Origin: Dastarcus helophoroides
Taxonomy: Eukaryota > Arthropoda > Insecta > Coleoptera > Bothrideridae
Length of the DNA: 64,000 bases
Assembly (NCBI GenBank): GCA_028583605.1
Contig: CM053333.1
Location: 25,213,302-25,277,301, forward strand
Direction of reading: 5' to 3'
In this document: piece after piece, positions 3,841 through 63,769 of the stretch
Position numbering within the stretch: the first letter of the stretch is position 1
Layout of the letters: every line of letters begins with the position of its first letter
Made by a program: the position numbers and the translations under genes
Notes under the pieces: generated by a model
What the model saw: only the letters and a program-made list of their open reading frames with translations
Told to the model about the DNA's origin: nothing
Databases searched by the model: none

Positions 3841-4296
3841 TTTGTAAATTTCTAAACTTCTGTTTTGTAAACTTCTAATTTTATTGAAAATTTCCAATTT
3901 TATTTAAAATTTCTAATTTTTTTAAAATTTTCGACCCTTTCAAAATTTCGACTTTTTTCATAAATTTTTTGAGTATCGACTTTTTATAATTTCGACTTTT
4001 TGGAAATTCTGTTTTTTAGGAAATTCGAATAGTTTCATATTTTTTTGGGAATTTTGATGTTTTTGCGAAGTTTGAAATTTTCTCGACATTTAGACGTAAA
4101 TAAAGATTTTTTTAATATTTCGCCTTCTTTGGAATATTTTAATTTTTTTAATTCGATTTTTACTAATTTTGCCTTTGCCTATTGTTTTCGAACTTGAATT
4201 TTATTTCAAAATTTCAACCTATTCAATTTTTTTTAGAAAATTTTTATCCTTCTAGAATATTTTGACTTTATAATTTCAACATTCTTAGAATTTTTT
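3841..4296. repeat. T-polar AT-rich repeat
   Basis: Low-complexity sequence made of degenerate units such as AAATTTTCGACTTTTT, T-rich on the plus strand. It is the reverse orientation of the A-polar repeat that fills the HDAC6 introns. No gene. Confidence 0.7.
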
Positions 4297-4324
4297 CCTG
4301 TTTCCTGTTTAAATTGGAAGTGTA

Positions 4325-4389
4325 TACAACCACCGTACCATGCTGATGAGCCCAAGGAAGGCCGAAACTAGTCTATGGTTGCGGTTGTA
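4325..4389 (+). ncRNA. Hammerhead ribozyme 1 (family D, type I)
   Basis: Core CTGATGA (4343-4349), helix II GCCC/GGCC around the loop AAGGAA, GAAAC (4364-4368), then a minimal helix III (AC/GT with a TA loop) and GTC, with predicted cleavage after 4373. Helix I has a core-proximal part ACCATG/TATGGT, an internal loop and the distal TACAACC.. stem. Every invariant core base is present. One C-C mismatch lies in helix II, absent from copy 2. Such minimal helix III ribozymes are reported to work best as dimers. Confidence 0.85.
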
Positions 4390-4448
4390 CATATTTTCAA
4401 TTTTAAGCACGTTTAATTGTTTAATTACAGGACATTTAATTGGTCATT

Positions 4449-4773
4449 TGTCAAAACTAGATGAAAGTAAAGTCACGCCGAGGACGTTTGTATCTATGGA
4501 TGTTGCGATGCAACCCGTGATACAAGCTTTGCCTCATCTACGTGAACTTTGCAATTGCAGTCTAGTTTTCATTAGATTCTAATGGAATTAGATTTCAGTT
4601 GCATCGTAATAAACTTGTATATATTCGTATATACAAGGCTTATTATCTCAGCAGAGAGTAATGCTTCAATTAGCATGTAGCGAAAATGTTTGCGTAATAA
4701 ACAGTTAAAAGTCAGTTACAAGTCACCCAATGGAGGTTTGCTCTCTTGGATACTTATACGACTGACTAACGAC
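4449..4773 (+). other. Unique interior of the retrozyme-like element
   Basis: About 325 bases between the direct repeats, mixed composition, unlike the surrounding AT repeat. It contains a near-palindrome around TTGTATATATTCGTATATACAAG (4614-4636 region) and no protein-coding signature. With one direct repeat it makes up the 466-nt unit between the two predicted cleavage sites. Confidence 0.6.
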
Positions 4774-4790
4774 TTTAAATTGGAAGTATA

Positions 4791-4855
4791 TACAACCACC
4801 GTACCATGCTGATGAGGCCAAGGAAGGCCGAAACTAGTCTATGGTTGTGGTTGTA
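4791..4855 (+). ncRNA. Hammerhead ribozyme 2 (family D, type I)
   Basis: Core CTGATGA (4809-4815); helix II GGCC/GGCC (4816-4819 with 4826-4829) closed by AAGGAA; GAAA (4830-4833); helix III of two base pairs (AC 4833-4834 with GT 4837-4838) and loop TA; GTC with predicted cleavage between 4839 and 4840. Helix I pairs ACCATG (4803-4808) with TATGGT (4840-4845), then an internal loop (CGT opposite T), then TACAACCAC (4791-4799) with GTGGTTGTA (4847-4855). This is a textbook core with all conserved nucleotides and the best ribozyme candidate in the window. Confidence 0.9.
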
Positions 4856-4924
4856 CATATTTTCAATTTTAAGCACGTTTAAGTGTTTAATAACAGAACA
4901 TTTAATTGGTCATTAGAATTTTTT

Positions 4925-11383: not shown

Positions 11384-12016
11384 GTACTAAAATATAAAAA
11401 AATGGAAACATTTCTAGAGTCTAACTCTTCCAACATTTTGACAAAGTAATTTAACAACAATGTGGCCTATTTATCTTAATTTAATCTCTAAATAAAAACA
11501 GATGGGTGGGTGAGATGATAAAATTACTAGAAAGATATTCCTTTTCTAAAATTTATCTTGAACTGTCTTCTATAACCTGCCCTTGTGTATGAAAAATGCC
11601 TCTAGAAAATGCTCTATTTAAAGACATAGTTTGAAGTCAGCTGGAGAAAAATCTTTTTTTTTAATTTTTTTCATATTTTGATTAAATTCATGATTTTAAC
11701 TTTTATCTCAAATTTAAAATTTGCACCGAATATTTAATTTTGGAAGATTGGATGTTTTTTTTAAGTTCAAGTTCGGATTTGCAAGTCAAAATTTTGGAAA
11801 AAAATTCGAATGAATTTAAAGGTAAAAATTTTTAGATTTAGGGTGAAAATTCGAACTCGAAATTTTAAGAACTTCTTCATTTGAAAATGTTATACTCCTT
11901 CTGAATATCCTGAGTATATAACCTAAGATATATATTTTTTTTAATTTCAACTGAGATTTCAAAATGTTTTTTTTTGTTAAGTGTGAGTTTTGGTCTGTTA
12001 ATGCCTTTTTTTGAAC
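11384..12016. other. AT-rich spacer
   Basis: AT-rich sequence with some short repeat words and no recognisable gene, RNA or mobile-element end. Confidence 0.5.
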
Positions 12017-12388
12017 GAGTATTTTACCTTTTTGGTGCCTTCTTTAGCGTTTTTCCTAATTCAACATTTTGCTCAACTTTTTACCTTGCTTGATTGTGCT
12101 TTAAATCAGGTCTCTAATAATAAGAAATGGCGCCAAATTTGAATAAAAAATCCTTCCATTTCAGTACGAAAACAAAATGATCCATCAAAAATGGTTTTTA
12201 AAGAGTATTTTACCTTTTTGGTGCCTTCTTTAGCGTTTTTCCTAATTTAACATTTTGCTCAACTTTTTACCTTGCTTGATTGTGCTTTAAATCCGGTCTC
12301 TAATAATAAAAAATGGCGCCAAATTTGAATAAAAAATCCTTCCATTTCAGTACGAAAACAAAATGATCCATCAAAAATGGTTTTTAAA
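12017..12388. repeat. 186-bp tandem repeat, two copies
   Basis: The unit starting GAGTATTTTACCTTTTTGG occurs at 12017 and again at 12203 with only a few differences, and both end in ATGATCCATCAAAAATGG. The unit includes GGTGCCTTCTTTAGCG and AATGGCGCCAAATTTG. Neither copy encodes a protein. The near-identity points to a recent local duplication. Confidence 0.9.
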
Positions 12389-12864
12389 AAGTTCTATCTA
12401 TCTATCAAACTTCAATTAAATTCATAATTTTAACTTTTATCTCAAATTTAAAACTTGCACCAGAATATTTACAATTTGGATATTATTTCTAAATTCTGGA
12501 AGATTAGATGTTTTTTTTTAAGTTCAAGTTTCCTTTTAGCGTCTGATTCTTTTTCTAACTGGTAACAACTTAATTCCTACGTTTTTTTTATTTTGGGCAA
12601 TTTTGGGAATTATTGTTGCTATCTGAATTTGTAATGTCGAAATGCATTTGATTCTTTCAAATTTCGAAAAAAAGTTTTTGCTATAGATTTTTAAGTTTTA
12701 CCTTTAATTTCTAAATTTCGACCTTTTTTGGAAATTTTCAATTAAAATTAGATTTTTTGTTAAATGTGAACTATGTTAATAGTTTTTTTTTTCTCAAAAT
12801 TCAAGGTTTAAAATCTTGGTATTTACTTTAAACCTGGAAATCTCGCCAAAGTTTTTGTGAAAAA
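12389..12864. other. AT-rich spacer
   Basis: Low-complexity AT-rich sequence partly repeating words from 11650-11950 (for example TTAACTTTTATCTCAAATTTAAAA), suggesting an older, larger duplication. No gene seen. Confidence 0.5.
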
Positions 12865-12949: not shown

Positions 12950-13925
12950 TATTATTCATATGGGGTCGGTTATTCCTGCAGCCTGAAGTTATCGCTTATT
13001 GTGCCCCCACAATTATTTCATTCTTTCGTTCTTTTGAAAAATTTCAGAACCTCCTTTATGGGTGTCTCCACTATTGTATTTGGTTCAGTCAAAGCATTCC
13101 CAAAGCTGGAATGTCTATCCTTTGTCAGAGCCGGACATTCACATAATATATGTAAAGGAATTAAGTATTAAGTTAGATAAATACTCAACAATCTTTCAAG
13201 CGGAGATGTTGGGAATTTTATATAGCGCCGAACAAATGACGCAACTGAACATTACAGGAAAATATATCCAAATAAAGACGTACAGCCAGGCAGTCCTTAA
13301 GGCCCTGAGAAATGTGAAAACAAACTCAGTGCTGGTATGGAACTGCCGCCTAGCTTTAGAACGTCTATCACAAGAGAATGCAATTGATCTAATATGGATC
13401 AAAGGACATTCTGGAAAAGAGGGAAACGAACGCGCTGACAAACTAGCGAGGAAGGGTTCGGAGGGACAATTCGTTGGACCAGAACCAACCCTTCCCCTGG
13501 CGAGATCAACCGTAAGATCCCTACTTAACGAAGAAATTTATCGTAAACACAAAGCCTTATGGGCATCAATAACAACATGCCGATCAACTCACGCATTCAT
13601 TAGAATGCCTTGCAGGAAAAGGGCAAAACTATGCCTACAACTCTCAAGGAATAATCTCAGGAAACTTGTAGGGATATGGACAGGTCACTGTCGATTAAAC
13701 AAACACCTCCACCGAATGGGAATTATAAACGACCCGAGCTGCAGAGGGTGTTTAGAAGAAGATGAGAGTATCGAGCACGTGATGTGTCACTGCCCGGCAC
13801 TAGCATCAATCAGAGGATCCACGCTGGGGGACTTTTGTCCTAGTGTGGCCAGTTTGAAAGAGGCGCATCCAAGGGACGTTCTTCAGTTTCTCAACAAGGT
13901 TAGGTGGCTGAATGAATGACCAAGG
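12950..13925 (+). pseudogene. LINE 3' part: RNase H domain and C-terminal zinc region
   Basis: The open frame at 13062-13919 (285 codons) carries an RNase H domain: FQAEMLGILYSAEQ, then IWIKGHSGKEGNERADKLA near 13395-13450. It is followed by a C-terminal region with the Cys/His pattern CRGCLEEDESIEHVMCHCP that ends many LINE proteins of the I/LOA/R1 groups. The usual SDSQA motif reads TYSQA, so a catalytic Asp is lost. No RT domain lies upstream, making this a 5'-truncated copy. The frame is long, but it is transposon-derived and not a host gene. Confidence 0.8.
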
Positions 13926-15367: not shown

Positions 15368-16504
15368 TTAATATGCTATGCTATATGATGCGGGCCCTGG
15401 AAATTGACCTCTAATTAATAAGGTTAGGTCATGTGCGTATCCTTGCGCATGAAATCCTTCTAGTTCTAGTACCCTTAGCAGATCATCCACCACAAGGCTC
15501 CACAGAAGTGGTGACAATACCCCACCCTGTGGACAGCCCCGGAATGCAGATACCGCTATCGATACGTTGCCTAGTGATGTTGTTATTCTCCTGTTTTGGA
15601 GCATAAAGTCTATCCAGCGAGTTACCGCCGCATCGACTCCTTGCCTCTCTATGGCTCTTTGGATACATGCGTATGACGTGTTGTCAAATGCACCTTTACT
15701 ATCTAAGAAGGTTCCCAAGGCAATTTCCTTGCTTATGAGGGCTTCCTAGATCCTGCGTGTGAGTTCATGCAGGCTCAGGTCGCAAGATTTACCTGCTTGG
15801 TAGGGGTATTGATATCGAAGCAAAGGAAACCACCTCATCGCATCGCCCCTAATATACCTATCGACAAGTTTTTCCATTATTTGGAGCATGAATGACGTCA
15901 AGCTGATTGGCCTGAAAGACTTTGCCTAGGCGTACGTATTTCGCCCTGGTTTGGGTATCCAAACCACACTCGTCCTTCTCCAGTCCTGAGGCACACATCC
16001 TGTGGCCACACAGGCCCTGAATATTGCGCACAAGGGTGACGCTAGTGCTTCAACTCCTTGTTGTAACATTATTAGTAATACTTCGTCTGGGCCTGGTGAT
16101 GTATATGGTTTGAAACTGTTTATCGCCCATATAATTCTGGTTATGTCAAATAGTTTATTAGCTATTCTCCAGCTTTGACTTGATCCCCGATTTTGCGGTA
16201 CATCGGTGTCTTGGCTGTCCTGTTGTGCAGGAAGGGGTGCGCACCCCGGGAAGTGCCCCTGAACTAAAACCTTCAGGGTCCCCTCCTCGGAATGCGTGTA
16301 TTCTCCCTGTGGTGTTTGCAAAGATCCCAGTATATTCTGGTTGTTCTTTTGCAATGCCTTCTGGAGTCTAGCGCATTCTGGGGATTTTTTGATCCCCTCC
16401 AGAAATTCTCCCTTTTCCTTTTTAATGGTACTTACATATTCCCCTCTTGAGGTTTTATATTCCCCCCAATCCATCCGGTCCTTATGGGGGTATTTAAAGA
16501 GCAA
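15368..16504 (-). pseudogene. Reverse transcriptase fragments of the minus-strand LINE
   Basis: The upstream piece (16504-15926) contains INSFKPYTSPGPDE and VPQDWRRTSVVWIPKPGR, the classic start of a LINE RT. The downstream piece (15718-15368) has FLDSKGAFDNTSY, FRGCPQGGVLSPLLW and, at the catalytic site, YAHDLTLLI instead of YADD. The palm Asp replacement and the frame breaks show that the enzyme is inactive. Confidence 0.85.
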
Positions 16505-16960: not shown

Positions 16961-16963
16961 TAT

Positions 16964-17400
16964 TCAAGAAGAATGCAACCTAGACTACGAATTCATGCAG
17001 CCCTCCAGGTGTGTATAATGAATCATAGGTAGCTGAACTACCAACAGTTGAAACACTGCCACCTAGCGAAGCGGTTGCTCTCTAGGAGAGTTCCCAGAAG
17101 ACAAGGATTCTATAATGCAGAGATCAATAGGTTTGAACATTTATTAGATTCGAAGTTTGGAAACCAAATACCGGTTTCGATCTTGTTAGATCTATTTGGT
17201 TTCCAAGCTTCGAATCTAATAAATATTCAAACCTATTGGTCTGTGCATTATAGAATCCTTGTCTTCTGGGAACTCTCCTAGAGAGCAATCGCTTCGCTAG
17301 GTGGCAGTGTTTCAACTGTTGGTAGTTCAGCTACCTATGATTCACTATACACGCCTGGCGGGCTGCATGAATTTGTAGTCTAGGTTGCATTCTTCTTGCA
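16964..17400. repeat. Long palindrome with 205-bp arms (family C)
   Basis: The left arm (about 16964-17170) and right arm (about 17193-17400) are reverse complements at roughly 95 percent by eye, around a 22-base spacer. Shared landmarks are AATGCAACCTAGACTAC at the outer ends, GTAGCTGAACTACCAACAG in the middle and GGAAACCAAATA at the inner ends. The spacer is the helix II/GAAAC part of a family C hammerhead on the minus strand, so the palindrome joins two element halves at the ribozyme. A single half of the same element lies at 26225-26395. The overlapping open frames on both strands are by-products of the symmetry. Confidence 0.9.
17140..17192 (-). ncRNA. Truncated hammerhead half, family C
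   Basis: On the minus strand helix II GATC-TAACAA-GATC (17192-17179), GAAAC (17178-17174) and the 3' helix I strand are present, but the CTGACGA core strand that should precede helix II is replaced by the other palindrome arm. It cannot form a complete ribozyme alone. Confidence 0.6.
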
Positions 17401-17505
17401 TACGACATTGTTGGCGATTGCCATAGTTTCTCTATCGACCAATAGATGGTAGTACTAAAGAATCACTCGCTTGACGCCTGTGAATGTTTTAGTACTTACT
17501 TGTCG

Positions 17506-17605
17506 GAACATTTATTAGCATTCGAGTTGGATATACCAAACTGACGAGATCCAACAAGATCGAAACCGGTATTTGGTTTCCAAACTTCGAATCTAATAAA
17601 TGTTC
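17506..17605 (+). ncRNA. Hammerhead ribozyme, family C (best copy)
   Basis: Core CTGACGA (17541-17547); helix II GATC/GATC (17548-17551 with 17558-17561) and loop CAACAA; GAAA (17562-17565); helix III of two pairs (AC/GT) with a CG loop; cleavage triplet GTA with the predicted cut between 17571 and 17572. Helix I pairs ACCAAA (17535-17540) with TTTGGT (17572-17577), has an internal loop (TAT opposite T), then a long distal stem from GAACATTTATTAG (17506) to CTAATAAATGTTC (17605). The architecture is the same as that of the unrelated family D ribozymes. Confidence 0.8.
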
Positions 17606-18130
17606 AAACCTATTGGTCTGTGCATTATAGAACTTAAGCTTTTAATTTATTTTATTAGTTAGGTGGTGGTTATTAAGTGGTAATTTCATTTTGTAAACAT
17701 TTTATTGCACAAGAACTAGCTGTTAACGGCCACTTCGTCAACGAACTTAAATAACTGAATGGAAGTCTCAAAAAATTTTACATTGAAATGAAATTTGAAA
17801 GTCGGTAACGCAATATGACTGAAATCGATAATGCAGATGTCTACTTTTATGGTAATAGTTCGGAAACCTTAGAAGAGAGGTCGCTACCATAATAAAGATT
17901 ACAGAGGTGACCTTTCTCTATGATTATTTAAATCGTTTAAAAAGATAATAAAGGTTATTTAAGCTTTGTGGATATAAATTTTGGATAAGAAGTAGCCTAT
18001 TGACTATTCCGCATCGTAAGGAATGTATGTCCCAATTTTCTTCAAAGTCGGTGATTGAGCCGTGAAAAGCGGACAAACAAACAGACAAACATACTTTCGC
18101 CTTTATATGTCAGTAAGGATGTTTCCTAAA
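17606..18130. repeat. Repeat-like sequence with retroelement-style tail
   Basis: Ordinary-composition sequence ending at 18065-18125 with GCGGACAAACAAACAGACAAAC and CTTTCGCCTTTATATGTCAG, a style of sequence I associate with the 3' ends of RTE-type LINEs and their SINEs in insects. No coding remains were found upstream, so the identification rests on this tail alone. Confidence 0.35.
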
Positions 18131-25965: not shown

Positions 25966-26012
25966 GTTTTTAAGTATTTAATTGCGATTCCAATGCACAG
26001 AGCAATAGGTTT

Positions 26013-26112
26013 GAACATTTAATAGATTCGAAGTTTGGAAACCAAATACCGGTTTCGATCTTGTTAGTTCTCGTCAGTTTGGTATATCCAACTCGAATGC
26101 TAACAAATATTC
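26013..26112 (-). ncRNA. Hammerhead ribozyme, family C (minus copy)
   Basis: On the minus strand: CTGACGA (26077-26071), helix II GAAC...GATC (one A-A mismatch) with loop TAACAA, GAAAC (26056-26052), minimal helix III and GTA followed by TTTGGT pairing with ACCAAA before the core. All invariant core bases are present; only helix II is weakened by one mismatch. Confidence 0.7.
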
Positions 26113-26124
26113 CGACAAGTAAGC

Positions 26125-26218
26125 ATGTTAGCATTCGAGTTGGATATACCAAATTGACAAGATCTAACAAGATCGAAACCGACATTTGGTTTCCAAACTT
26201 CGAATCTAATAAATGTTC
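26125..26218 (+). ncRNA. Hammerhead ribozyme, family C (decayed copy)
   Basis: The fold is conserved (helix II GATC/GATC with loop TAACAA, helix I ACCAAA/TTTGGT), but the core strand reads TTGACAA instead of CTGACGA and the cleavage triplet region reads GACA instead of GGTA. With three core changes it should be inactive, which makes it a useful internal contrast to the intact copies. Confidence 0.6.
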
Positions 26219-26399
26219 AAACCTATTGATCTGTGCATTAGAATTCTTGTCTTCTGGGAACTTTTTCCTAAAGAGCAACCGCTTCGCTAAGTGTTTCAAC
26301 TGCTGGTAGTTCAGCGACCTATGATTCACTATACACGCCTGGAGGGCTGCATGAATTTGTAGTGTAGGTTGCATTCTACTTGCATTTAATTGCGAGTTT

Positions 26400-33235: not shown

Positions 33236-33539
33236 TTTCAGTCGTCTGAGGTAGTACCAGCCCACGTATCACTAGGAGGCGGTGAAATGATGCTTACATC
33301 ATGTTTCCGTCTCTGACACGTGAGTCGGTTTCTGCTATTCTTCTTTCCTCATCCTGTTCTTTTCCTTATTTCCTTTTTTCATCGACTATGATTTTTTCTT
33401 CTAATTATTAAAAACAAAGATGATGGATTCTCTTCGTGCAAAAAATTGCGGACGTAAACTACCCTCCCGTTCGGATGTCCGGGTGGAGGGTGTACGAGGG
33501 ATTCAAAATCGACGGAGAATTTTAATGCACCACGGGCCA
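33236..33539. other. Spacer or LINE 5' region
   Basis: Mixed composition, between the purine tract and the first recognisable LINE codons. It may be 5' untranslated or ORF1-proximal sequence of the LINE but has no motif that proves it. Confidence 0.4.
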
Positions 33540-33544
33540 AGTTT

Positions 33545-34216
33545 CTTTCCAACAATTCATTCAAAATTCAATTCTGTAACCTTCGGGATCTAAACTCAAA
33601 CCTAAACTCGGTTCATCAACACCTTCAAAAGAAAAGGCCCCATGTGCTGTCTCTGACAGAAACCCAAGTCTCCCCATCCATCAATACAGTCCATTTGCTT
33701 TGCCCTAACTACAACTTGCACACAAAATTTCGACACAAGAAGGGAATTTGTGCTTTTACGCCAAGCGACCTGTCCTGTCAACGAGAAGAAGCACTGGAAT
33801 CTGCTGATCATGATGTGATTTGGCTGAAAATCTGCTTCAAAAATGAAGTAATATTTATTTGTTCACTTTATTTGTCTCCAAACGATCCCTCATACAGACA
33901 GCTCTTCTCTTATCTCTCCGTAACCTTTGATCAGCTGCAGACGAATTATCCAAAGGCTGAGGTTGTCTTTCTTGGTGACTTCAACGTACACAACATCCCC
34001 TGGTTAAGGTTTCCTTCCCGAACTGACCACGCGGGAAGGGTGGCCGAGGCTTTCGCCATCACTTGTGGACTATCGCAATTAGTTGAGGTACCCATAAGAA
34101 TTCTTGATGTAGATATCCATCAACCTAATCTACTGGACATTTTCCTTACAAATTCACCAAATTCGTATACAATCTCTGTGACATCACCGCTTGGAAATTC
34201 GGATCGTAGCTTGTAG
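33545..34216 (+). pseudogene. LINE endonuclease domain (APE-like)
   Basis: The frame is open upstream of the first ATG (33644) and includes FKIQFCNLRDLNSNLNSVHQ, the usual start of an APE-type domain, with Cys where Trp is common. Catalytic-site motifs follow: LSLTETQ, FLGDFNVHN and NLLDIFLTN, and near the end LGNSDRSL where the family has SDH, so the essential His is replaced by Arg. It would nick target DNA if active; the His loss and downstream damage argue against that. Confidence 0.8.
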
Positions 34217-34472: not shown

Positions 34473-34962
34473 TTAACTCGATGAAAATAGCAATATTGCT
34501 ACTACCTCCAAGGAAAAGGCTGACATGTTAGCCTTAAAGTTTGCTGCAAATTCCAATCTTGATTCTCGAAACGCGGAACCTCCTATTCTTCCTAAAGTTG
34601 GCACTTCTATGCCTGAAGTTGTTTTCAGACAACGCACAATCAGAAAGATTCTTTTTGAGCTCGACACCTCGAAAGTTTCTGGCCTTGATGGTATTCCCGC
34701 TATTGTTCTTAAGAAGTGCGCCCCAGAGTTGACTCCTGTCCTAAGCAAATTTTTCACACTCTCTTACAACAAAGGTGTATTTCCTAACATCTGGAAATCT
34801 GCTAGAGTGCAGCCTGTCCCTAAAAAGGGAAAAAGGAATCTGGCTAACAACTATCGCCCTATATCTTTGTTACCCGTTATATCTAAAATGATGGAAAAGG
34901 TTATCAACATCAAGATTCTCAAATATCTGGAGGAAAATAGAATCATCTCCGACAGGCAATAG
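34473..34962 (+). pseudogene. LINE RT start (fingers)
   Basis: Contains LDTSKVSGLDGIPAIVLKK and NNYRPISLLPVISKMMEK, the opening of the RT domain, and ends at an in-frame TAG where copy 1 reads RQYGFRQQRST. It is colinear with 3410-3000 of copy 1, to which it is closely similar. Confidence 0.8.
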
Positions 34963-37021: not shown

Positions 37022-37543
37022 TTAAACGTCGTTTACTGAAAGCTTGTTAACCTGAATGTTAATTTTTTCATATTTTTTTTCGTTATATATTGAGCTACTA
37101 AATTTCCTGTTGTACTTATATTTCATTGTTACATCTGATATCTTCTTATTGACCTGTAAAACGGGCCAATAGCGTTTCTGTATACTTATAACTTTGTTAA
37201 TAGTCTCAACAGCCCCTTTATTAATAGCAAACTCGTAAGCATTTTCAGGTGTCGGTATCGGATGACCCAAAAGGGCTTTTATGCACATCACAGCACTATA
37301 TGCTGTCGTATTTACGTTGTATCCACCTTCTAAAGCCAAGATAATTTTACCTTGAGCTAATGGTTTTAAAAGGTAAATGAATTGACCAAATGTTTCAGGT
37401 GTAACTTTGTATCCACCAAGTGGATCGTGGATACCAGCATCAAAACCAGCAGAAACTAATACTACCTCTGGTGCGAAGGAATAGGCGATTGGTAACACTA
37501 TTTTTTGAAACACAGCCAAATATTCACCATTGCCCATGGAGCC
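37022..37543 (-). CDS. HDAC6: HDAC6 exon 10, end of domain 2 and C-terminus
   Basis: Acceptor TCTTTTTCTTTTTAG. Reads [40 protein letters not shown] with the third zinc ligand, and [10 protein letters not shown] with the catalytic Tyr. After QKRYWPVL only about 45 low-complexity, Lys-rich residues remain before TAA. The Cys/His-rich UBP finger that ends most HDAC6 proteins is not encoded here, nor did I find it in the 37 kb downstream. Confidence 0.92.
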   Translation of the reverse strand, partial: GSMGNGEYLAVFQKIVLPIAYSFAPEVVLVSAGFDAGIHDPLGGYKVTPETFGQFIYLLKPLAQGKIILALEGGYNVNTTAYSAVMCIKALLGHPIPTPENAYEFAINKGAVETINKVISIQKRYWPVLQVNKKISDVTMKYKYNRKFSSSIYNEKKYEKINIQVNKLSVNDV

Positions 37544-43500: not shown

Positions 43501-46500
43501 GACCTAAATTTTCAAAAATAAGAAATCTAAGGTTGAAATTCGAAATTTTTGAATTTTTAATTTTCAAGAAAAATTCGAAATTTGAAAAAGCAGATTTTTT
43601 TCCATAAAAAGCCGATATTTTCAAAAGACAAAATTTCCAAAAAAGAAGTCGAAATATTCATAAAGTCGAAATAGTCATAAAATCGAATACTTAAAAGAAA
43701 TCTTAAATTTTCAAAAAGCTAAAATTTTCAACAACAAAAAAATGTCGAAATATTCATAAAGGTAGATCCACATCAATAAAAAATGTTGTGCGTTGCATTT
43801 GAAAGAGTTAGGTTATGTCCACGGTTTTTTTTGCCTTACAAGCAAAGGTTTTTACACTATATCTGAAGAACTGAAAAACACACAAACGGATTCGTCGGTA
43901 TAACACACACAATAAATATTTACGACACAAAATAATTGACATTGCGTGAAAAATATTTTGTTTTTATTTCAAAATATAACCAACAAAACAAATTTTTATT
44001 TGTGGGGGAATCCAGCTGAAAGTTGGATTGACAAATTTTTATCGATGTGTATCCAGCTTTAAGTTGAATTCCCACAAATAAAAATTTGTGTTGTGCGTTG
44101 TATTTTGAATTTTAAAACCATATTTTTCAGGCAACGTCAATTAGTTTGTGTCGTAAATAGTTATTTTGTGTGTTACAACCATATATTTAATACTTCTATA
44201 TTGGCAGCTTCGCGTTTTACGTGGGTCCATACCTCTCTCTTTCTACTCCGCTTCTCTACGGGGATATTCCCAAAGCGCAGGCGTTCGAAATTAGATGTGC
44301 ACGAAAATATGAGTTTATCTGTTAAATGCATACGTTGAAAGTGTGACAGAATTGTCCGTTTTCCTCAAGCTTTCCAATTCGAACTGACGCTTGCGCCAAA
44401 CTTACAGCATCCTTGTCGGATGGAGACAGCTTTCACTTACCAAGAGAATAGAGAGCTGGCAATATAGAAGTATTAAATATATAATTACAGCACCAAATCC
44501 CCTTGTCCTAGACTTTTAAAGTACAGTACAAAAACCGTGAATATAATTTAACTTTTTGTGATAAATACAACGCACAACACAATTTTTTATTGATGTGGAT
44601 TCAGCTTAGGTCGAAATTTTCAAAAAGATTTAACATCTTTGAAATTTCGACTTCTTTGCACGAAATTTGGGAGTTCGACAACGAGTTGTGGCAAAACATC
44701 TAAAAAACTGGATGACCGAATAAAACTTGTGCCCAAATTCTGACAATTACAAAAAGGAAAGAAAGGGAGCAATATATGGTGGAGGCACCTCTGTGCTATA
44801 GCATGTGTTGAATGGTTTTCAATTCGCTTCTTCTACTGTAGACTGTAGTCAATTAGAATAAATGCAGCAGTTACTTACCCCACTGAATGGAATGTTTACA
44901 TTGTACCCCTCCCCATTCCCGTCTCCGACAAAATCCGCATCAGCGCTACATTTCGAAGGATAGAAATTTCCTTTGTCGTATCTGTGAATACTTATATAAA
45001 GTACCTTGTCAGATTTATAAAAAATATCTTGAGTTCCGTTTCCATGATGAATATCAAAATCGACAATAAGGATTCTAAAATTTTCAGTTTCACCTAAGTA
45101 ATTAATAACTTATGAATACTAACCTGCTTTTATTGTATTTTTCAATTATATAATTAGCAGCCACTGCTATATTATTAATAAAACAAAAACCGCTGGCTGA
45201 ATCTAAGGAAGCATGATGACCCGGAGGTCTTATAAGAGCTATACCGTTGGTATAGTGACTCGTTAGAACTTTATCAACTACAGATAGAAGACATTGGGAA
45301 GCCTTTATAGCAGATTTAAATGTGTGCTCATTACAATATAAGTCTTGCGACTGTGGAATTTTATTTTCAACAACATCCTCTAAATATGACTCGGTGTGCA
45401 CTTGCCTCCACCAACTAGAGACATCTATGTTGGCTGCCTGAAAAGAATGCGTTACATTTGAAAACATCATAAAGTGGTAACAAGCTTTAATTATAATCAG
45501 ATGTTTAAGAAAAAAAGTCATAAAATCGTAAAATACAAATCTACATTCTAAAAAAAGTACAGTATCTCAAAATCTTTTTTCATAAATCGAAATTTGGACA
45601 ATAATTAAAAATCGGAAAGATATTTAAAATTTCTACCAAAAAACTTTCGAGAAATTTTAAATTTAAATAAAAAGTATTTAAATTTAAGAAAAAACTTGAA
45701 AATTTTACAAATCCCTTTAGAGAAAACTCGCATTTCAAAAGGGTTGAAATTAAAAAAAAATTAATTTTAATAAAAAACTCAAAAAACAATAGAAAATCAA
45801 AAATCGAAAAAACTCAAAATTTAAAAAAAAATCGAAATTATATAGCAGTTTTCAAAAAAAAACAAAATCAAAATTTTCAAAAAAAAGGAAAACAGAAAAA
45901 TCGAAATTCAGGAAAAGTCAAATTATTTAAAGAAATATTAAATTAAAAACATACCAAATTAAAAAAGTTGAAATTTTCTTTAAAAAATAGAATGCTTCAA
46001 AAATAGTTGACTTTTTCAAAAGTCGAAATTTTCAATAAATCAATATTTTCAAAAAACAAGTCGAAGTACTTTTTATCACAAATTGTTTTTAGTTTGATAT
46101 GTCTTTAAATATTTTGACTTTTTTTGAATTTCGATTTTTTTTAATTTTTTCAAAATTTTGATTTTTTCGATTTTTGATTTTTTTACTGAAATTTAAACTT
46201 TTTTAAATTTCGACCTTTTTAAAATTCGAGTGTTCTCTAAAATAATTTATAGAATTTTTAAGTTTTTTCTCAAATTTAATGGTTTTTATTCAAATTTAAA
46301 TTCCTCGAAATTTTTTAGTAGAAATTTTGAATTTCTTTAGAATTTTAATAATTGTCCCAATTTCAATATTTGTCCAAAACTGGACTTCGAAACCGTTTAA
46401 GACAAAATTAATTTAACTTAAAATGTTAAAATGTTTTTATAAATTTCGAGCTTTTTTCAAATTTTATTAATTTGTCTCCAAATGGCGAGTTTAACTTAAA

Positions 46501-49500
46501 CCGAAAATTTGTCCACAATTTCGAAAAAATTTAATTCCATTTTAAAGTCTCCACCTTAATCTAACATTTTATATTTTTTCCTTCTCAAAATATTAAAGCC
46601 AAAATATTGCAAAGAAATTCGAAATTTGAAAAAAGTGAATTCTCAAAAAACACTCCAAATTTTTAAAGAAGTCTAACTTTTCAAAAAGGTCAAAATTTTC
46701 GAAGTCAAATTATCCAAATGAAAGTCACATCTTTCAAAAAATATAAATTGAAAAAGTTGGAACTTTAAGAGTCGAAATTAAAAAAATATAATTTTTAAAA
46801 TGGTCGAAATTTTCAAAAGAAAAGCTAAATTTTTCACAGTTAAGGTTTACAAAATAATTGACAGTTGCATGAGGTTGAATTTTCAAAAAAAAACTGAAAA
46901 CTGACAAGATTTTCAATAAAAGCCGAATTTTCAGTCTACATTTACAAAAAAAACTGAAAATTTCAAGAGAAAGAATTTTGAACAACAAAGTTGAGAGATG
47001 AGAAAAGTTGACTTTTTAAAAAAGGTGGCTATTTCAAAATAGAAATTAAAAAAAGTTGAAACTGAAAATATGACAAATCAAAATTTTCAAAAATAATCAA
47101 TGTTTTGCAAAAAGAGTCGAAGTTTTCAAGTCAATTTTTCCAAAAAAGTCATATTTAAGAAAAGTTGGAACTTTCAAACAGTTAAAATTTACAAAAAAAT
47201 AAATAAAAACTTCAAGTGACAACATTTTGAAAAAACTTCAAAATTTGAAAGTCGAATTATTTTTTTTTAAGTGGCTTCCAAAAGAGTCAAAATTAAGAAA
47301 AGTCCAATCCTGAAAAAGCTAACAAATCAAAATTGTGGTGGAACGAACTGGTCCTTGGTTATCTTTAAAAATTGAAATATAAATCTTGCCCCCTTAAAGC
47401 AAGAAAGATTTAAAAACCCAACAATGGTTGCTCTAACGCGTTTCGATAGCCAAGCTATCATCTTCAGGGAGATAGAACGCGTTAGAGCAAAAATTGTCAA
47501 AAAAAATCGATGTTTTTCAAAAAGGTCGAAGTTGTCAAAAGTTAAATTTTATAAAAAAAGCAATATTTTTCAAAAAACGACGAATTTTGAAAATATTGAA
47601 ATTTTCAAAAAAGCAGAAATTAAAAAAAATCATGTTTCTAAATGGTCAAAATTTTCAAAAAGAGCAGTTTTTTAGTCAAAATTTACAACAAAAAAATTGA
47701 AAGCTTCACAAGGCAAAATTTTGAAAAAAAGTTGAATTTTCAAAAAAAAACTGGAAACTACAAGATGTAAAATTTTGAAAAAAAAGTCGATATTTTAGAA
47801 AAGTCGAATTTTTCAAAAAGGCGACTTTTTCAAAATAGTCGAAATTTTGAAAACGTTAACGTATCAAAATGTTAAAAAAATTTGATGTTTTCCAGAAAAG
47901 TCGAAGTTTCTAAAACAAAAAATTTAAATTATCAAAATTTTGATTTTTTTTAAATAAGCGGCTTTTTCGAAATAGTCGCAATGATGAGAAGACAAAATTT
48001 TGAAAAAGTTAACAAACCAAAATTTTCAAATAAATCGATGTTTTCCAAAAAGTCGAAGTTTTTAAAAGTTAAGTTTTCTATAAAAAGTCATAGTTTTCAA
48101 AAAAGGGAGAATTTTGAAAATGTTGAAATTTTCAAAAAAGTAGAAATTCGAAAAAACATCAATTTTCTAAATGGTCGAAATTCTCAAAAAAAAGCTAAAT
48201 TTTTCAGCCAAAATTTACAAAAAAAAATTGAAAGTTTCAGGAGACAAAATTTTGAGAAAAAGCCGAAATTGGGGAAAAGTCGAATTTTCCAAAAGTCGGC
48301 TTTTTCAAAATAGTCGAAATTAAGAGAAGTCAAAATTTTGAAAAAGTTAACATCAAAATTTTCAAAGAAATCGATGTTTTCCAAAAAGTCGAAGTTTTTA
48401 AAAGTTAAATTTTCTAAAAAAAGTCATATTTTTCAAAAAAGGAAGAATTTTGAAAATGTTGGAATTTTCAAAAAAGTAGAAATTCGAAAAAACATCAAGT
48501 TTCTAAATGGTCGAAATTCTCAAAAAAAAAAGAAAAATTTGTCAGCCAAAATTTACAAAAAAAATTGAAAGTTTCAGGAGAAAAAATTTTGAGAAAAAGC
48601 CGAAATTTGAGAAAAGTCGAATTTGTCAAAAAGTCGGCTTTTTCAAAATAATCGCAATTAAGAAAAGTCAAAATTTTCAAAAAGGGCGATGTTTTCCAAA
48701 AAGTCGAAGTTTTTAAAAGTTAAATTTTCTAAAAAAGTCATATTTTTCAAAAAAAGAAGAATTTTGAAAATGTTGAAATTTTCAAAAAATTAGAAATTCA
48801 AAAAAACATCAATGTTCTAAATGATCGAAATTCTCAAAAAATAGTCGAAATTAAGAGAAGTCAAAATTTTGAAAAAAAGTTAAACCAAAATTTTCAAAAA
48901 AATCGATGTTTTCCAAAAAGTCGAAGTTTTTAAAAGTTGAATTTTCTAAAAGTCATATTTTTCAAAACAGGAAGAATTTTAAAAACGTTGGAATTTTCAA
49001 AAAAGTAGAAATTCGAAAAAACATCAATTTTCTAAATGGTCGAAAGTCTCAAAAAGAAGCAAAATTTTTCAGACAAAATTTACAAAAAAAAAAATTGAAA
49101 GTTTCAGGAGACACAATTTTGAGAAAAAGCCGAAATTTGGGAAAAGTCGAATTTGTCAAAAAAGTCGGCTTTTTCAAAATGATCGAAATTAGAGAAGTCA
49201 AAATTTTGAAAAAGTTAAATCAAAATTTTCAAAAAAATCGATATTTTCCAAAAAAGTTGAAATTTTCAAGTCAAATTTTCTAAAAAAAGTCATATTTTAA
49301 AAAACACGAATTTTGAAAATGTTGGAATTTTCAAAAAGAAGAAACTAAAAAAAAATCAATTTTCTGAATGGTCGAAATTTTCAAAAAGAGTAACATTATT
49401 TAGACAAAATTTACAAAAAAAAAATTGAAAGCTTCACGAGACAAAATGTTGAAAAAAAGTTACATTTTCAAAAAAAAAAAGGTAACTTCAAAAAATTTAA

Positions 49501-52500
49501 ATTATCGAAATTTTGATTTTTTTTTCAAATAAACGGCTTTTTCAAAATAGTCGCAATTAAGAGAAGACAAAATTTTGAAAAAGTTAACAAACCTAAATCT
49601 TCAAATAAATCGATGTTTTCCAAAACGTCGAAGTTTTTAAAAGTTAAATTTTCTAAAAAAAAGTCATATTTTTCAAAACAGGAAGAATTTTGTGGTCGAA
49701 ATTTTCAAAAAAAAGCAAAATTTTTCAGCCAAAATTTACAAAAAAATTGAAAATTTCAGGAGACAAAATTTTGAGAAAAAGTCGAAATTTGAGAAAAGTC
49801 GCATTTTTTAAAAAGTCGGCTCTTTCAAAATAGTCGAAATTAAGAGAAGTAAAAATTTTGAAAAAGTTAACGAATCAAAATTTTCAAAAATATCGATATT
49901 TTCCAAACAAGTCAAAATTTTCAAAAGTTAAATTTTCTAAAAAAAAGTCATATTTTAAAAAAAAAACACGAATTTTGAAAATGTTGGAATTTTCAAAAAG
50001 TAGAAACTCAAAAAAAATCCAATTTTCTAAATGGTCGAAATTTTCAAAAAGAGAACATTTTTTAGTCAAAATGTACAAAAAAAAATTGAAAGCTTTACGA
50101 GACAAAATTTTGAAAAAAAGTTGAATTTTAAAAAAAACTGAACTTCAAGATACAAAATTTTGAGAAAAAGTGGAAATTTTAGAAAAGTCGAATTCTTCAA
50201 AAACACGACTTTTTAAAAAAAGCGGCTTTTTCAAAAACAACAAATTAAAATTATCGAAATTTTGATTTTTTTTCAAATAAACGGCTTTTTCAAAATAGTC
50301 GAAAAATAAAATTAAAAAATAAAACTCGAAATTTCTATTACAAAAATGTTTAGAAATTGAAAATAAAAAAAACATCACTTTAGTATTTGTTGGTTCGGTC
50401 TGATTAAGTTAAATTTATGACAAAAAAAATCGAAATTTCGAGAAAAACTGAAAAAATATACAAAAAAATTTGAATTATTGAATTTGATAGTCGAAATTTC
50501 GAAAAAGAAGTCAATTTTAAAAAAGAGCCACAATTGGAAAAACATTCAAAATGTTAATAAAAAATCGGAAAAAACTGTAATTTCTATAAAAATATTTTAT
50601 TACTATTCATGTTGTGCAAAATTTTTGCACAACGTGAATAATTTAAGAATAGAATTATTAGTGGAACGAATTCGTACCAGTTAATATGGAAAATATCGGG
50701 ACAAAGTAATTAATTTATTACTTTGAAACTTGGTCATTATACATAATGACTAGCCATTGTGAATAATCTCTACTTAATTACTTTGATTGTAACATATATT
50801 CAACAACTAAATAGGCACCTGAATTTCACTGCAGTCGGCCAAAGAATTAAATTCCTTGAGGATATTCAGTATTCTTTCTAGTCTTTCGGGTTTTTCAAAG
50901 GATGCACTTTCGGATTTATGCAAAAGCATATCTTTATCTGTTGCATAACAAGTCCCCTTAAATGCGCCAAGGTAATCTACAACATTCTTTTTCATTATCT
51001 GAAAACTAGAGCAAGTGTAGCTACTCACTAACAGTCGAGGTTTTTATAATCCCTTCACAATACTTGGCGTATTCAGGATCGATTTTTGGGTAGCAATCCC
51101 TGGTCGCATACGGTGGTCCGTATTCAATCTCTCCAAAATATTTAATACATATCAAATGCTCTTCCAAATGGTTCATTATGCTTTCAGAAACATAATCAAA
51201 TTTCACGATGTCAGAGAAACAATTCCAATAACAACTCAAAACACCCTTGACGTTATTAATTGTTTCTATGACACTTCGATGAACCGATTTGGTCGGTCGC
51301 AGCATCGGACATGGGTCACCACATAACGCTTTAGCTGTTAAGGTGGCGCCATGAGCGAGCGATAAGGGGAAGTACCCGCCTTCCAGACAAACCGCTATTC
51401 TACCTTCTGCCAACCCTGATAAGTGGGATATTAAATGGGAATAAAACGCTGGCGTCAGAAGCATGCGACCCTTTAAAAAATGTCGTATAAGTATGCATTA
51501 TTTGATCATTTCCACCCCTTACTTCAGGACATCCAATACAAGCATCATATCCGGCAGCTACCACAATCAAATCTGGTCTAAATTCGTAAGCTACTGGTAG
51601 AATGATATTAAATAAAATAGCTAAATAGTCCTCATCCCCTAAACCGGTAGCGTTTAGGGGTACATTAATGTTGAAACCTTCCCCGTTGTGTTCCCCAACG
51701 TAGTTGAAGTTTCCTTCGGGTAAATTCGGCCAAAACGTCCCATTTTCGTACCGATGTATCGAAATGTACAGAACGCTAAAATGTTCCGCATTAGCTTTGT
51801 AAGGAGTGGCGGATTAATCGGACAAAGCGACCGCGTAGGGTCCCCAAGCACCAAACCGCCCCAAAATTTTAAAATATCCTTTTATTCATACAGTCCGAGG
51901 CGGGAGCAACAAATTAACTTACGAAATGCTCATTTTTTTATAGTGTCACATTGTGGTGTAGAGAAATAGCCAGCTGCTACTTCCTAAGCTGAAAATTGTT
52001 GAAAATTCGTGTACGAGCAGTATACTGATAAAACTGCTATACAATGGTCCAGTCTTAAAAATCTTGCAACCGGGGGCGTCAGCAGCGCGTTTAGTGGTAA
52101 AAAATCTAAACAACGTGAAAGTGCTTTCCTAAATATGAAATACGACAAAAAAAATGGGGAATATTATTATTAAAAAAATATAGTCAGGCCGAATTTTCCC
52201 GCAATGAATGTCGTCAGTAGCCGATAGAGCGCGCCGCTTACCCCTTTCGTCCGCTATATTCCTGTTATTTCATAGCGCGAAAATTTCAATCTGTTATTTT
52301 TGACATTTTCAGCTGTTTGTTTTATGTTTTTGCTTCTCGTTAGAAACCTATTTTCAATTGATGAGAAGTATAATCATAAAGAGCTAAAATATCAAAAATG
52401 ACAAGTCAGAATTTTCGCGCTATGAAATGGCAGGAATATGGTGGAAGAATGCCAGTCTCTTGCTGGAGAGTCTCTACTTGTTTTATAGCTCATTCAACAG

Positions 52501-62994: not shown

Positions 62995-63234
62995 AGGGGT
63001 TCTCAACCGATGGTACGCGTACCTCTTGAGGGTACAGAAAAATTTGTAGGGGCCATTCGCTTAGTTACTAAAAAGTATGTAAAAACAGAATTTAATTGTA
63101 ATGAAATTTGTTGAGTAATGATTTAAAACTGATAAATCAATAAAGTAGCAACCAAGATAACGAAGGCTTCCACGGCCAGAGTCAGTACAGGATATACTTC
63201 TTCCGGGATTAGACCGTGTCAAAGCATTACTAAA

Positions 63235-63285
63235 AGTGTTCGACGTTTCGCCCACCATCGTAGGGGGTTTCTCCAGGAACAAAGA
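63235..63285 (-). ncRNA. Hammerhead-like motif, family B (mutated)
   Basis: On the minus strand GTTC, CTGGAGA (63276-63270), helix II CCC/GGG type, GAAAC (63249-63245), GTC and GAAC. The invariant A of CTGA is G here, so this copy should be inactive. Confidence 0.4.
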
Positions 63286-63362
63286 AAAGAAACAATAAAT
63301 AAAAAGAGAAATATAAGGGAATATACAAAAATGAAAAGGCCAATTTCGTTGTTTTTGTTTTT

Positions 63363-63410
63363 TCTTTGTTTCTGAAGAAGCCCCTAAATGGTGGGCGAAA
63401 CGTCGAACCT
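63363..63410 (+). ncRNA. Hammerhead-like motif, family B (copy 3)
   Basis: CTGAAGA (63372-63378), one extra A, helix II GCCC/GGGC, GAAAC (63397-63401), GTC with predicted cut after 63404, and GAAC pairing with GTTT before the core (one wobble). It preserves all catalytic bases. Confidence 0.45.
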
Positions 63411-63769
63411 TTTAGTAGTTCTTTGACACGGTCCAATCCCGGAAGAAGTATATCCTGTACTAAGTAGCAAACAAAGTTATAATTTACAGCTGTATTTGAT
63501 GATGAACTTTGTAAACAAAAATCAGAATTCCCACAACTGATTAATAAAAGCTTTGTTACAAACTGTGCATTACAAAAAAATGTTTTTAATTTGAATTATC
63601 TATTCGAAATTAAACTTTTGCAGTTTAACAGTTAAACTTTGCGGATATGTATAGTTAATGATACACAAAAGGTGCTCGTAGGTTGAGAACTCCCCTGTAT
63701 TAGGGCGACGTCCCGGCGTGAATACTGTAAATTTGATTTTATGATCAGTGTTGGATTAATCACGCAGCA

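Follow-up and report, generated by a model that had tools for sequence, protein, structure and literature searches.

What is the short, repeat-bounded element near the left end of this window, and which enzyme placed it there? The window, the whole stretch of 64,000 nucleotides that was analysed (C9:25213302-25277301, in an assembly of 538.9 Mb and 50 contigs), had been described in a sequence-only reading as carrying a retrozyme-like element bounded by two hammerhead ribozymes. The observation is confirmed and its interpretation is supported: the element, here called A, is one non-coding copy of a multi-copy insect mobile element that carries an RNA motif of a self-cleaving type, and it belongs to an established class, the metazoan non-LTR retrozymes. 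The two 141-bp direct repeats that had been noted 466 bp apart were measured with exactly this length and spacing (Table 1), they are 96% identical with six mismatches, and CTGATGA, GAAAC and GTC are present in both. The reported flanking duplication is exact. A match of 12 bp or longer was found at 44 of 20000 random anchors when either end could shift by 4 nt and at 56 of 3002 when it could shift by 15 nt, and in a second scoring the null reached the value of the TTAGAATTTTTT duplication in 10 of 1500 cases. The extent given earlier, 4297-4914, is corrected to 4297-4912, and the first 11 nt lie outside the repeated unit; most other full-length matches to A in the genome start at query position 12. 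These 11 nt hold TTTCCTG twice if the flank is counted and are possibly end-joining filler. The longest stop-to-stop frame of A is 89 aa, which together with its GC content gives the low-GC, non-coding character of a retrozyme. A is not the only hammerhead element of the window: a second family (B), overlooked in the sequence-only reading, sits at 17 kb and 26 kb.

Table 1. Retrozyme features of the window (u, position in the unit, where u1 is the first base after the ribozyme cut).
Feature	Position	Strand	Remark
Left target-site duplication of A, TTAGAATTTTTT	4285-4296	.	exact 12-bp match to 4913-4924
Element A	4297-4912	+	between two TTAGAATTTTTT copies
5'-junction 11 nt outside the 466-nt unit	4297-4307	+	read from sequence
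First direct repeat, holds left hammerhead	4308-4448	+	repeat comparison
Left type I hammerhead, damaged	4324-4396	+	Rfam HH9 21.2 bits; predicted cut 4373/4374
Family A monomer (466-nt unit between predicted cuts)	4374-4839	+	36.7% GC; 72.5% paired as predicted circle
Second direct repeat, holds right hammerhead	4774-4914	+	repeat comparison
Right type I hammerhead, intact	4791-4861	+	Rfam HH9 26.7 bits; predicted cut 4839/4840
Insertion 3' end = family A start site 1	4912	+	73 nt beyond predicted cut
Right target-site duplication of A, TTAGAATTTTTT	4913-4924	.	exact 12-bp match to 4285-4296
B1 left half	16961-17192	-	sense 3' end u~204-208
B1 right half	17193-17632	+	440 nt, 1.17 turns; sense 3' end u~61
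B1 hammerhead, core CUGACGA, helix III palindrome ACCGGU	17523-17594	+	Rfam HH9 36.8 bits, below gathering
B2 left target-site duplication, ATTTAATTGCGA	25976-25987	.	exact 12-bp match to 26384-26395
B2 left half	25988-26125	-	sense 3' end u~55-59
B2 hammerhead	26024-26095	-	Rfam HH9 27.4 bits, E 0.012 on window, below gathering
B2 right half	26126-26383	+	sense 3' end u~207; hammerhead core changed
B2 right target-site duplication, ATTTAATTGCGA	26384-26395	.	exact 12-bp match to 25976-25987

At the gathering threshold, Rfam gave no hammerhead match for A. Below the gathering score of 52, the Hammerhead_HH9 model matched both repeats, as the earlier reading had anticipated of a covariance model: on an 801-nt stretch the E-values are 2.7e-4 (right) and 0.016 (left), and on the whole window 0.021 and 1.3. 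Membership in Amniote HH9 itself was rejected because the scores are far under gathering, and the type I hammerheads in the repeated units of A and B are to be read as matches below that score. The pattern CTGATGA-N4-30-GAAAC occurs twice in the window, against a shuffle mean of 0.19, and two occurrences were reached in 1 of 100 shuffles. Helix II had been described as closed in each copy. This holds for the right hammerhead, whereas C4351 puts a C.C mismatch into helix II of the left one, where C4382 also breaks a helix I pair. The window copy of A appears to be an older, decaying example. The core varies at position 7: of 100 hammerheads matched by a regular expression in the A loci, 86 have CUGACGA and 13 have CUGAUGA like the window copy. 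Two matches in viral contigs look like chance, none of 25 further stretches of viral contigs that contain the core string forms both helix I and helix II, and a pattern search of genome contigs returned no match.

Helix III of A consists of C-UA-G closed by an A-U pair, which in a monomer leaves two pairs and a two-base loop. Since ACUAGU is palindromic, two copies can pair into one six-pair helix, in keeping with the earlier suggestion of a 466-nt unit whose ribozymes act as dimers. With the core held open and helix III imposed, two right-hand copies of the A hammerhead fold at -72.4 kcal/mol, compared with -73.4 for the unrestricted optimum and -72.4 for two separate copies, placing the imposed dimer about 1 kcal/mol above the optimum. 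For B, the imposed dimer (-80.3 kcal/mol) is itself the optimum, and two separate copies give -78.2. A palindromic helix III (ACUAGU in A, ACCGGU in B) and a favourable predicted dimer fold, the marks of a dimer-acting hammerhead, are thus found in both families. The predicted monomer fold of A mispairs part of the ribozyme core. Folded as a circle, the A unit has a predicted energy of -148.1 kcal/mol against -98.8 +/- 6.0 for 100 shuffles, and its same-size flanks have z values of -0.3 and -1.7. Self-pairing above 70% has been reported for retrozyme circles (PMC4918200), and we counted both A (72.5%) and B (69.0%), predicted from one copy each, as self-paired.

Further copies with target-site duplications were looked for in the genome and found. 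A search of the assembly with A gave 98 matches in the best-scored 40 of 2167 candidate places; for A and for B alike, candidate places were only flagged by a first look, so their number is not a copy count. Our sample consists of these 40 best-scored insertions, the window copy and 39 others (L044-L082), and the query gives an advantage to copies that span its full length and that reach or pass the first of the two end sites described below. All 40 contain tandem units, from 1.3 to 7.4 turns of the 466-nt unit: 1.3-2.9 turns in single-orientation insertions and 1.5-7.4 in those with two head-to-head halves, where one half measures 104 to 2082 nt. The outer 3' ends (n=58) cluster at two positions, 36 at u72-87 and 20 at u275-284, and the two exceptions lie at u255 (L054) and u453 (L066). 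These clusters define start sites about 78 nt (site 1) and about 277 nt (site 2) past the cut. Eighteen of the 40 insertions are head-to-head, and 17 of these pair site 1 with site 2. The 22 single-orientation insertions end at site 1 in 19 cases, at site 2 in two (L044, L065) and elsewhere in one (L054); because the query ends at u75 and places were ranked by score, single-orientation copies ending at site 1 are favoured in this count. The pairing of the two sites in head-to-head copies is not explained by this bias. By eye, CATT was noticed a few bases before some start sites.

Target-site duplications give these ends their boundaries. With duplications scored as length minus 2.5 per mismatch, 24 of the 40 insertions reach the threshold of at least 11, against 1 of 200 mismatched pairings, and the other 16 have shorter duplications or none. 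In 21 of the 24 the length is 11-14 bp. Head-to-head insertions account for 16 of them (16/18, 11-17 bp) and single-orientation insertions for eight (8/22), and the duplications of more than 4 bp that characterise retrozymes are present in 24/40. When the ends are trimmed to the duplication in 22 of these 24 insertions, 22 ends fall at u71-83 and 16 at u274-279; two insertions were excluded by hand, L054 for its 3' end at u255 and L072 for a left repeat 21 nt outside. The inner ends of the two halves lie within 30 nt of each other in 2/18 head-to-head insertions, against 2.36 expected if they were unrelated, and in 18/18 both halves are jointly longer than one unit, so the halves overlap. None of 59 cDNA 5' ends coincides with the ribozyme cut, where about one would be expected by chance, a result which says only that cleaved, linear RNA does not usually serve as the template. 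In the best-scored copies, it is fixed 3' start sites rather than ribozyme cuts that determine where the insertions end. Neither this nor the frequent head-to-head arrangement, nor a Penelope-like element as the likely helper, figured in the sequence-only reading.

The turns within one insertion also resemble each other more than they resemble other insertions. Leaving out turn segments shorter than 60 nt, two turns of a single A cDNA differ on average by 0.62% (129 pairs), the halves of an insertion by 0.37% (105 pairs) and different insertions by 1.68% (10,663 pairs). In multi-turn insertions, 80 of 217 variant sites are identical in every turn, compared with a mean of 13.4 and a maximum of 26 in 200 runs of label permutation. 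Across all turns of both halves of head-to-head insertions, 45 of 102 variant sites agree. Such shared private variants indicate that the halves were probably copied from one RNA or from identical RNAs. A circular template would explain them simply, and the transcript of a homogeneous array would do so as well.

The second family was detected by a structural scan that allowed any base at core position 7 and gave a further hammerhead at 17541; 14 scan matches in 150 shuffled windows make a single match of this kind weak. On Hammerhead_HH9, the B1 hammerhead has E 9e-8 on 501 nt and E 1.2e-5 on the window. The window holds two insertions, B1 and B2, of this second retrozyme with a 377-nt unit, and both are head-to-head, made of two sense copies with their 3' ends outward. 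The null reached the B2 duplication in 33/1500 cases, and the B1 duplication is no better than chance (272/1500). Searching the assembly with B gave 102 matches in the best-scored 40 of 1934 candidate places, from which we compiled eight distinct insertions, the two in the window and six other scored places (L095 is B1 itself and L099/L100 are one locus, each counted once). Six of the eight are head-to-head, and all six pair an end at u55-68 with one at u203-208; the two single-orientation insertions (L097, L102) end at u206-207. Duplication scores, with no null for the set, are 13.5 (L101), 13 (L098), 12.5 (L099), 12 (B2) and 11 (L102), then 9.5 (L096, short of the threshold) and 7 (B1), and L097 has none. 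Inner ends are at most 23 nt apart in three of the six head-to-head copies (B1, B2, L099). A 161-aa frame overlapping B2 has no Pfam match.

Several other readings of B were set aside. A DNA transposon or foldback element does not agree with outer ends at two different unit positions and inner junctions that vary between copies, nor with the use of the same ends by A in tandem insertions. B2 is not an internal deletion of B1, since its u207 half reaches further upstream (u321, against u353 in B1). The idea that the two start sites oppose each other in one helix of the predicted circle was dropped, being true of B and not of A.

Elsewhere in the window, histone deacetylase exons lie on the minus strand (37022-37543, 45105-45566 and 51024-51813), and among solved structures the piece at 37 kb is closest to HDAC6. 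LINE-type pieces with RNase H with zf-RVT, reverse transcriptase and endonuclease are found at 13038-13916 (+), 15371-15745 (-), 33458-34213 and 34525-34959 (both +). Of 13 protein matches to one LINE piece, eight carry a species name, and all eight are insects, by which the source is judged to be an insect. Plant microRNA models match 52249-52446 and 63202-63442 below gathering score, and these matches are probably long inverted repeats, hairpins or simple repeats rather than microRNA genes. Larger tandem units occur at 12009-12392 (186 bp) and 47959-48841 (336 bp). No tRNA genes were found in the window.

The dependence of A on another retroelement, already suggested in the sequence-only reading, fits what we found among the Penelope-like elements of the same genome. 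GIY-YIG domains gave 91 matches in 150 scored of 1070 candidates, and we looked at 19 places (L036-L043 and L083-L094, with L040 inside L091). RVT_1 and GIY-YIG occur in one frame in three of 10 proteins scanned (L083, L084, L085), which marks these as Penelope-like; at least two groups are represented. Three loci (L092, L086, L089) hold head-to-head copies whose 3' ends lie at two sites and whose duplications measure 12-13 bp. Copies of the first group (that of L083, L084 and others) stand head-to-head in L092 and L086, with 12-bp duplications, not matched in any of 100 mismatched pairings, and with one 3' end at each of two sites about 36 nt apart; no hammerhead was found in the regions examined of this group. 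In the second group, L089 is head-to-head with ends about 63 and about 102 nt past a hammerhead-like motif. Its 13-bp duplication comes from a directed second look and has no null, the automatic search having given 7 bp with a misplaced right end. The motif consists of CUGAAGA, helix II, GAAA, mostly a palindrome ACGCGU, and a short helix I, and it recurs with changes in L085, L087, L088, L089, L090, L092 and L093. Counted from the predicted cut of this motif, 3' ends are at +63 (L088, L089, L093) and at +100 to +102 (L085, L092, L089). Rfam did not reach E 0.1 for it; read by eye, it may be a minimal hammerhead of the Penelope type. L093 also looks head-to-head. L039 is head-to-head and no duplication was found for it, and the duplication of L037 lies 21 nt outside the left end with one mismatch.

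A itself is non-coding and has no frame with reverse transcriptase and GIY-YIG, so it is not a Penelope element. BLAST gave no evident sequence relation of A or B to the Penelope elements, and its matches in L039, L041, L084 and L086 have the look of independent A or B copies lying next to a piece of Penelope. Thus, the assignment of the enzyme rests on the structure of the insertions. A and B insertions have the layout of the Penelope insertions, namely inverted copies, two 3' ends and a short duplication, and the likely helper of both is a Penelope-like element. At L041:995-1467, an A copy ends at u~274 (site 2) at the exact point where a 5'-truncated Penelope piece begins (1468-2060); this junction could be a nested insertion, two neighbouring insertions or a chimeric cDNA.

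We consider it fairly probable that a single retrozyme RNA, circular or a homogeneous multimer, is copied by a Penelope-type enzyme that begins at two fixed starts, with both strands of a staggered break serving as primers. The hammerheads would cut A transcripts, probably as dimers that share the 6-bp helix III formed by two ACUAGU strands, and a host ligase would close the monomers into circles. A Penelope-type protein would then make a staggered cut leaving 3' overhangs of about 12 nt, each of which would prime reverse transcription of the same RNA, one at site 1 (~78 nt) and the other at site 2 (~277 nt). From either start, reverse transcription could run round the circle, and the two cDNAs would then be joined; if one strand were primed alone, a tandem insertion such as A in the window would result. 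In this scheme we infer the cleavage, the circles and the identity of the enzyme. To a further proposal we give about an even chance: the Penelope reverse transcriptase may work as a pair, in which each protomer takes one of the two fixed starts on a single circular, hammerhead-made RNA, each start being primed by one 3' overhang of the ~12-nt staggered break. The pair would then copy one circle from both sides simultaneously. If this is true, retrozymes would be satellites equipped with both start sites, and the Penelope 'tail' would correspond to the spacing of the two.

Other routes to such insertions have to be weighed against this scheme. A LINE might move the retrozyme by target-primed reverse transcription, with the head-to-head copies arising by L1-style twin priming. 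In L1 twin priming, the position of the second start depends on chance annealing, and the two parts are not known to overlap. The second start of A is instead fixed, with 16 trimmed ends at u274-279, the halves overlap in all 18 head-to-head insertions, and the layout is that of the genome's Penelope-like elements, the one class that the comparison covers. We therefore regard a LINE as unlikely, even though LINE pieces are present in the window, duplications of 11-17 bp are also LINE-like, and a 15-bp duplication reported for Nematostella retrozymes was likened to those of LINEs (PMC4918200). Chance can be given practically no credence. It would make the second repeat a local duplication and the hammerhead match a coincidence, as the Rfam scores under the gathering threshold and the appearance of the core pattern in some shuffles might suggest, but the 98 matches in 40 scored places share unit, ends and duplications, and the 25 viral-contig stretches with the core string yield no pair of helices. 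The copies in the genome refute this reading.

Two alternatives concern single steps. The head-to-head structure could arise by self-priming (snap-back) on an antisense template instead of by two primed strands, as was suggested for rotifer Penelope from palindromes at the inverted junction (PMC3846280), and the inner ends of B1, B2 and L099 (three of six B copies) do lie within 23 nt of each other. However, self-priming predicts matching inner ends, which the A insertions have no more often than unrelated ends would (2/18, 2.36 expected), and it leaves unexplained why different fixed outer ends are paired in 17/18 A and 6/6 B insertions; we hold it to be improbable. The other alternative is compatible with copying by a Penelope-type enzyme from two fixed starts: the template might be the linear multimeric transcript of a tandem array, with the ribozyme unneeded for insertion. 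Ribozyme mutants of an Anolis Penelope left insertion in vitro unchanged and unprocessed RNA was described as the dominant substrate (PMC11167929), and a homogeneous source array would likewise yield shared variants. A linear template needs long arrays, up to 4.5 turns per half and 7.4 per insertion (L062), and host sequence at the 5' ends is, as an uncounted impression, not obvious where a duplication fixes the boundary. We see this template as possible, if somewhat doubtful.

The comparison with known systems draws on the accessible parts of the papers cited. Metazoan retrozymes, their circular RNAs and a suggested Penelope-like mover have been published (PMC7229834, PMC7761336, PMC11722881), and Penelope-like elements were named strong candidates for this role because of common hammerheads, tandem copies and co-occurrence (PMC7229834, PMC7761336). 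Metazoan non-LTR retrozymes (Cervera and de la Pena 2020, PMC7229834) resemble A in having type I hammerheads within short tandem repeats, a low GC content, no coding sequence, target duplications of more than 4 bp and a predicted self-paired circle. The A unit of 466 nt is above their RNAs of ~170-400 nt and, slightly, their repeats of 150-450 bp (PMC7229834), a range that we take as typical rather than strict and that includes the 377-nt unit of B. Most invertebrate hammerheads of this kind are said to form a stable helix III (PMC7761336), whereas that of A is a palindrome with 2 bp and a 2-nt loop; a palindromic stem III with dimer action is known for other hammerheads (PMC3088659, PMC7761336). 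Plant LTR retrozymes likewise have hammerheads in direct repeats around a non-coding centre, and circular RNA is described for them, but their hammerheads are of type III, their duplications are 4 bp, they have PBS and PPT, and they are thought to be moved by Gypsy-type elements (PMC4918200, PMC7761336). Identity with these was rejected for A, which has a type I hammerhead and a 12-bp duplication. Dolichopoda pDo500 is, like A, a non-coding insect hammerhead repeat of ~500 bp for which a double-hammerhead mode has been proposed. It is described as satellite DNA, unlike A, and its double form as drawn in PMC2837043 has stems I and II between strands and III within, whereas in A helix III is the palindromic one.

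The closest likeness is to Penelope itself. In Poseidon of Anolis (PMC11167929) and in the elements of Adineta (PMC3846280), as in A and B, inverted copies occur that for the most part stand head-to-head, a second 3' end (the 'tail') is optional, and target duplications are short; the rotifer copies have duplications of 8-10 bp, and self-priming was proposed for them (PMC3846280). In Anolis, as proposed here for A and B, reverse transcription starts within the RNA past the ribozyme cut: the cut lies 26 bp into the frame and the main starts follow at 111-118 bp (PMC11167929), by subtraction a distance of 85-92 nt. Both DNA strands are cut and extended by the Anolis enzyme, which favours AT-rich DNA and whose two start sites account for the tail (PMC11167929). 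Unlike Penelope elements, A and, in all likelihood, B code for nothing, their start sites are ~200 nt (A) and ~145 nt (B) apart compared with ~31-40 in Penelope, and their helix I is longer, with an internal loop, than in Penelope hammerheads. The accessible part of PMC7229834 describes no retrozymes inserted head-to-head with a pair of fixed 3' ends, and we found no report of such insertions in the open-licence PMC literature searched, as far as its accessible text extends. What this work adds is the insertion architecture and its match to the Penelope-like elements of the same genome. Self-priming and the extension of both strands have each been published as an explanation of Penelope copies that stand head-to-head, and the ends of A and B bear on both ideas. 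Knowing the two start sites also opens the reaction to study in the in vitro system already available for a Penelope protein. Insertion ends offer a direct genomic test of what moves a retrozyme, usable on any animal genome.
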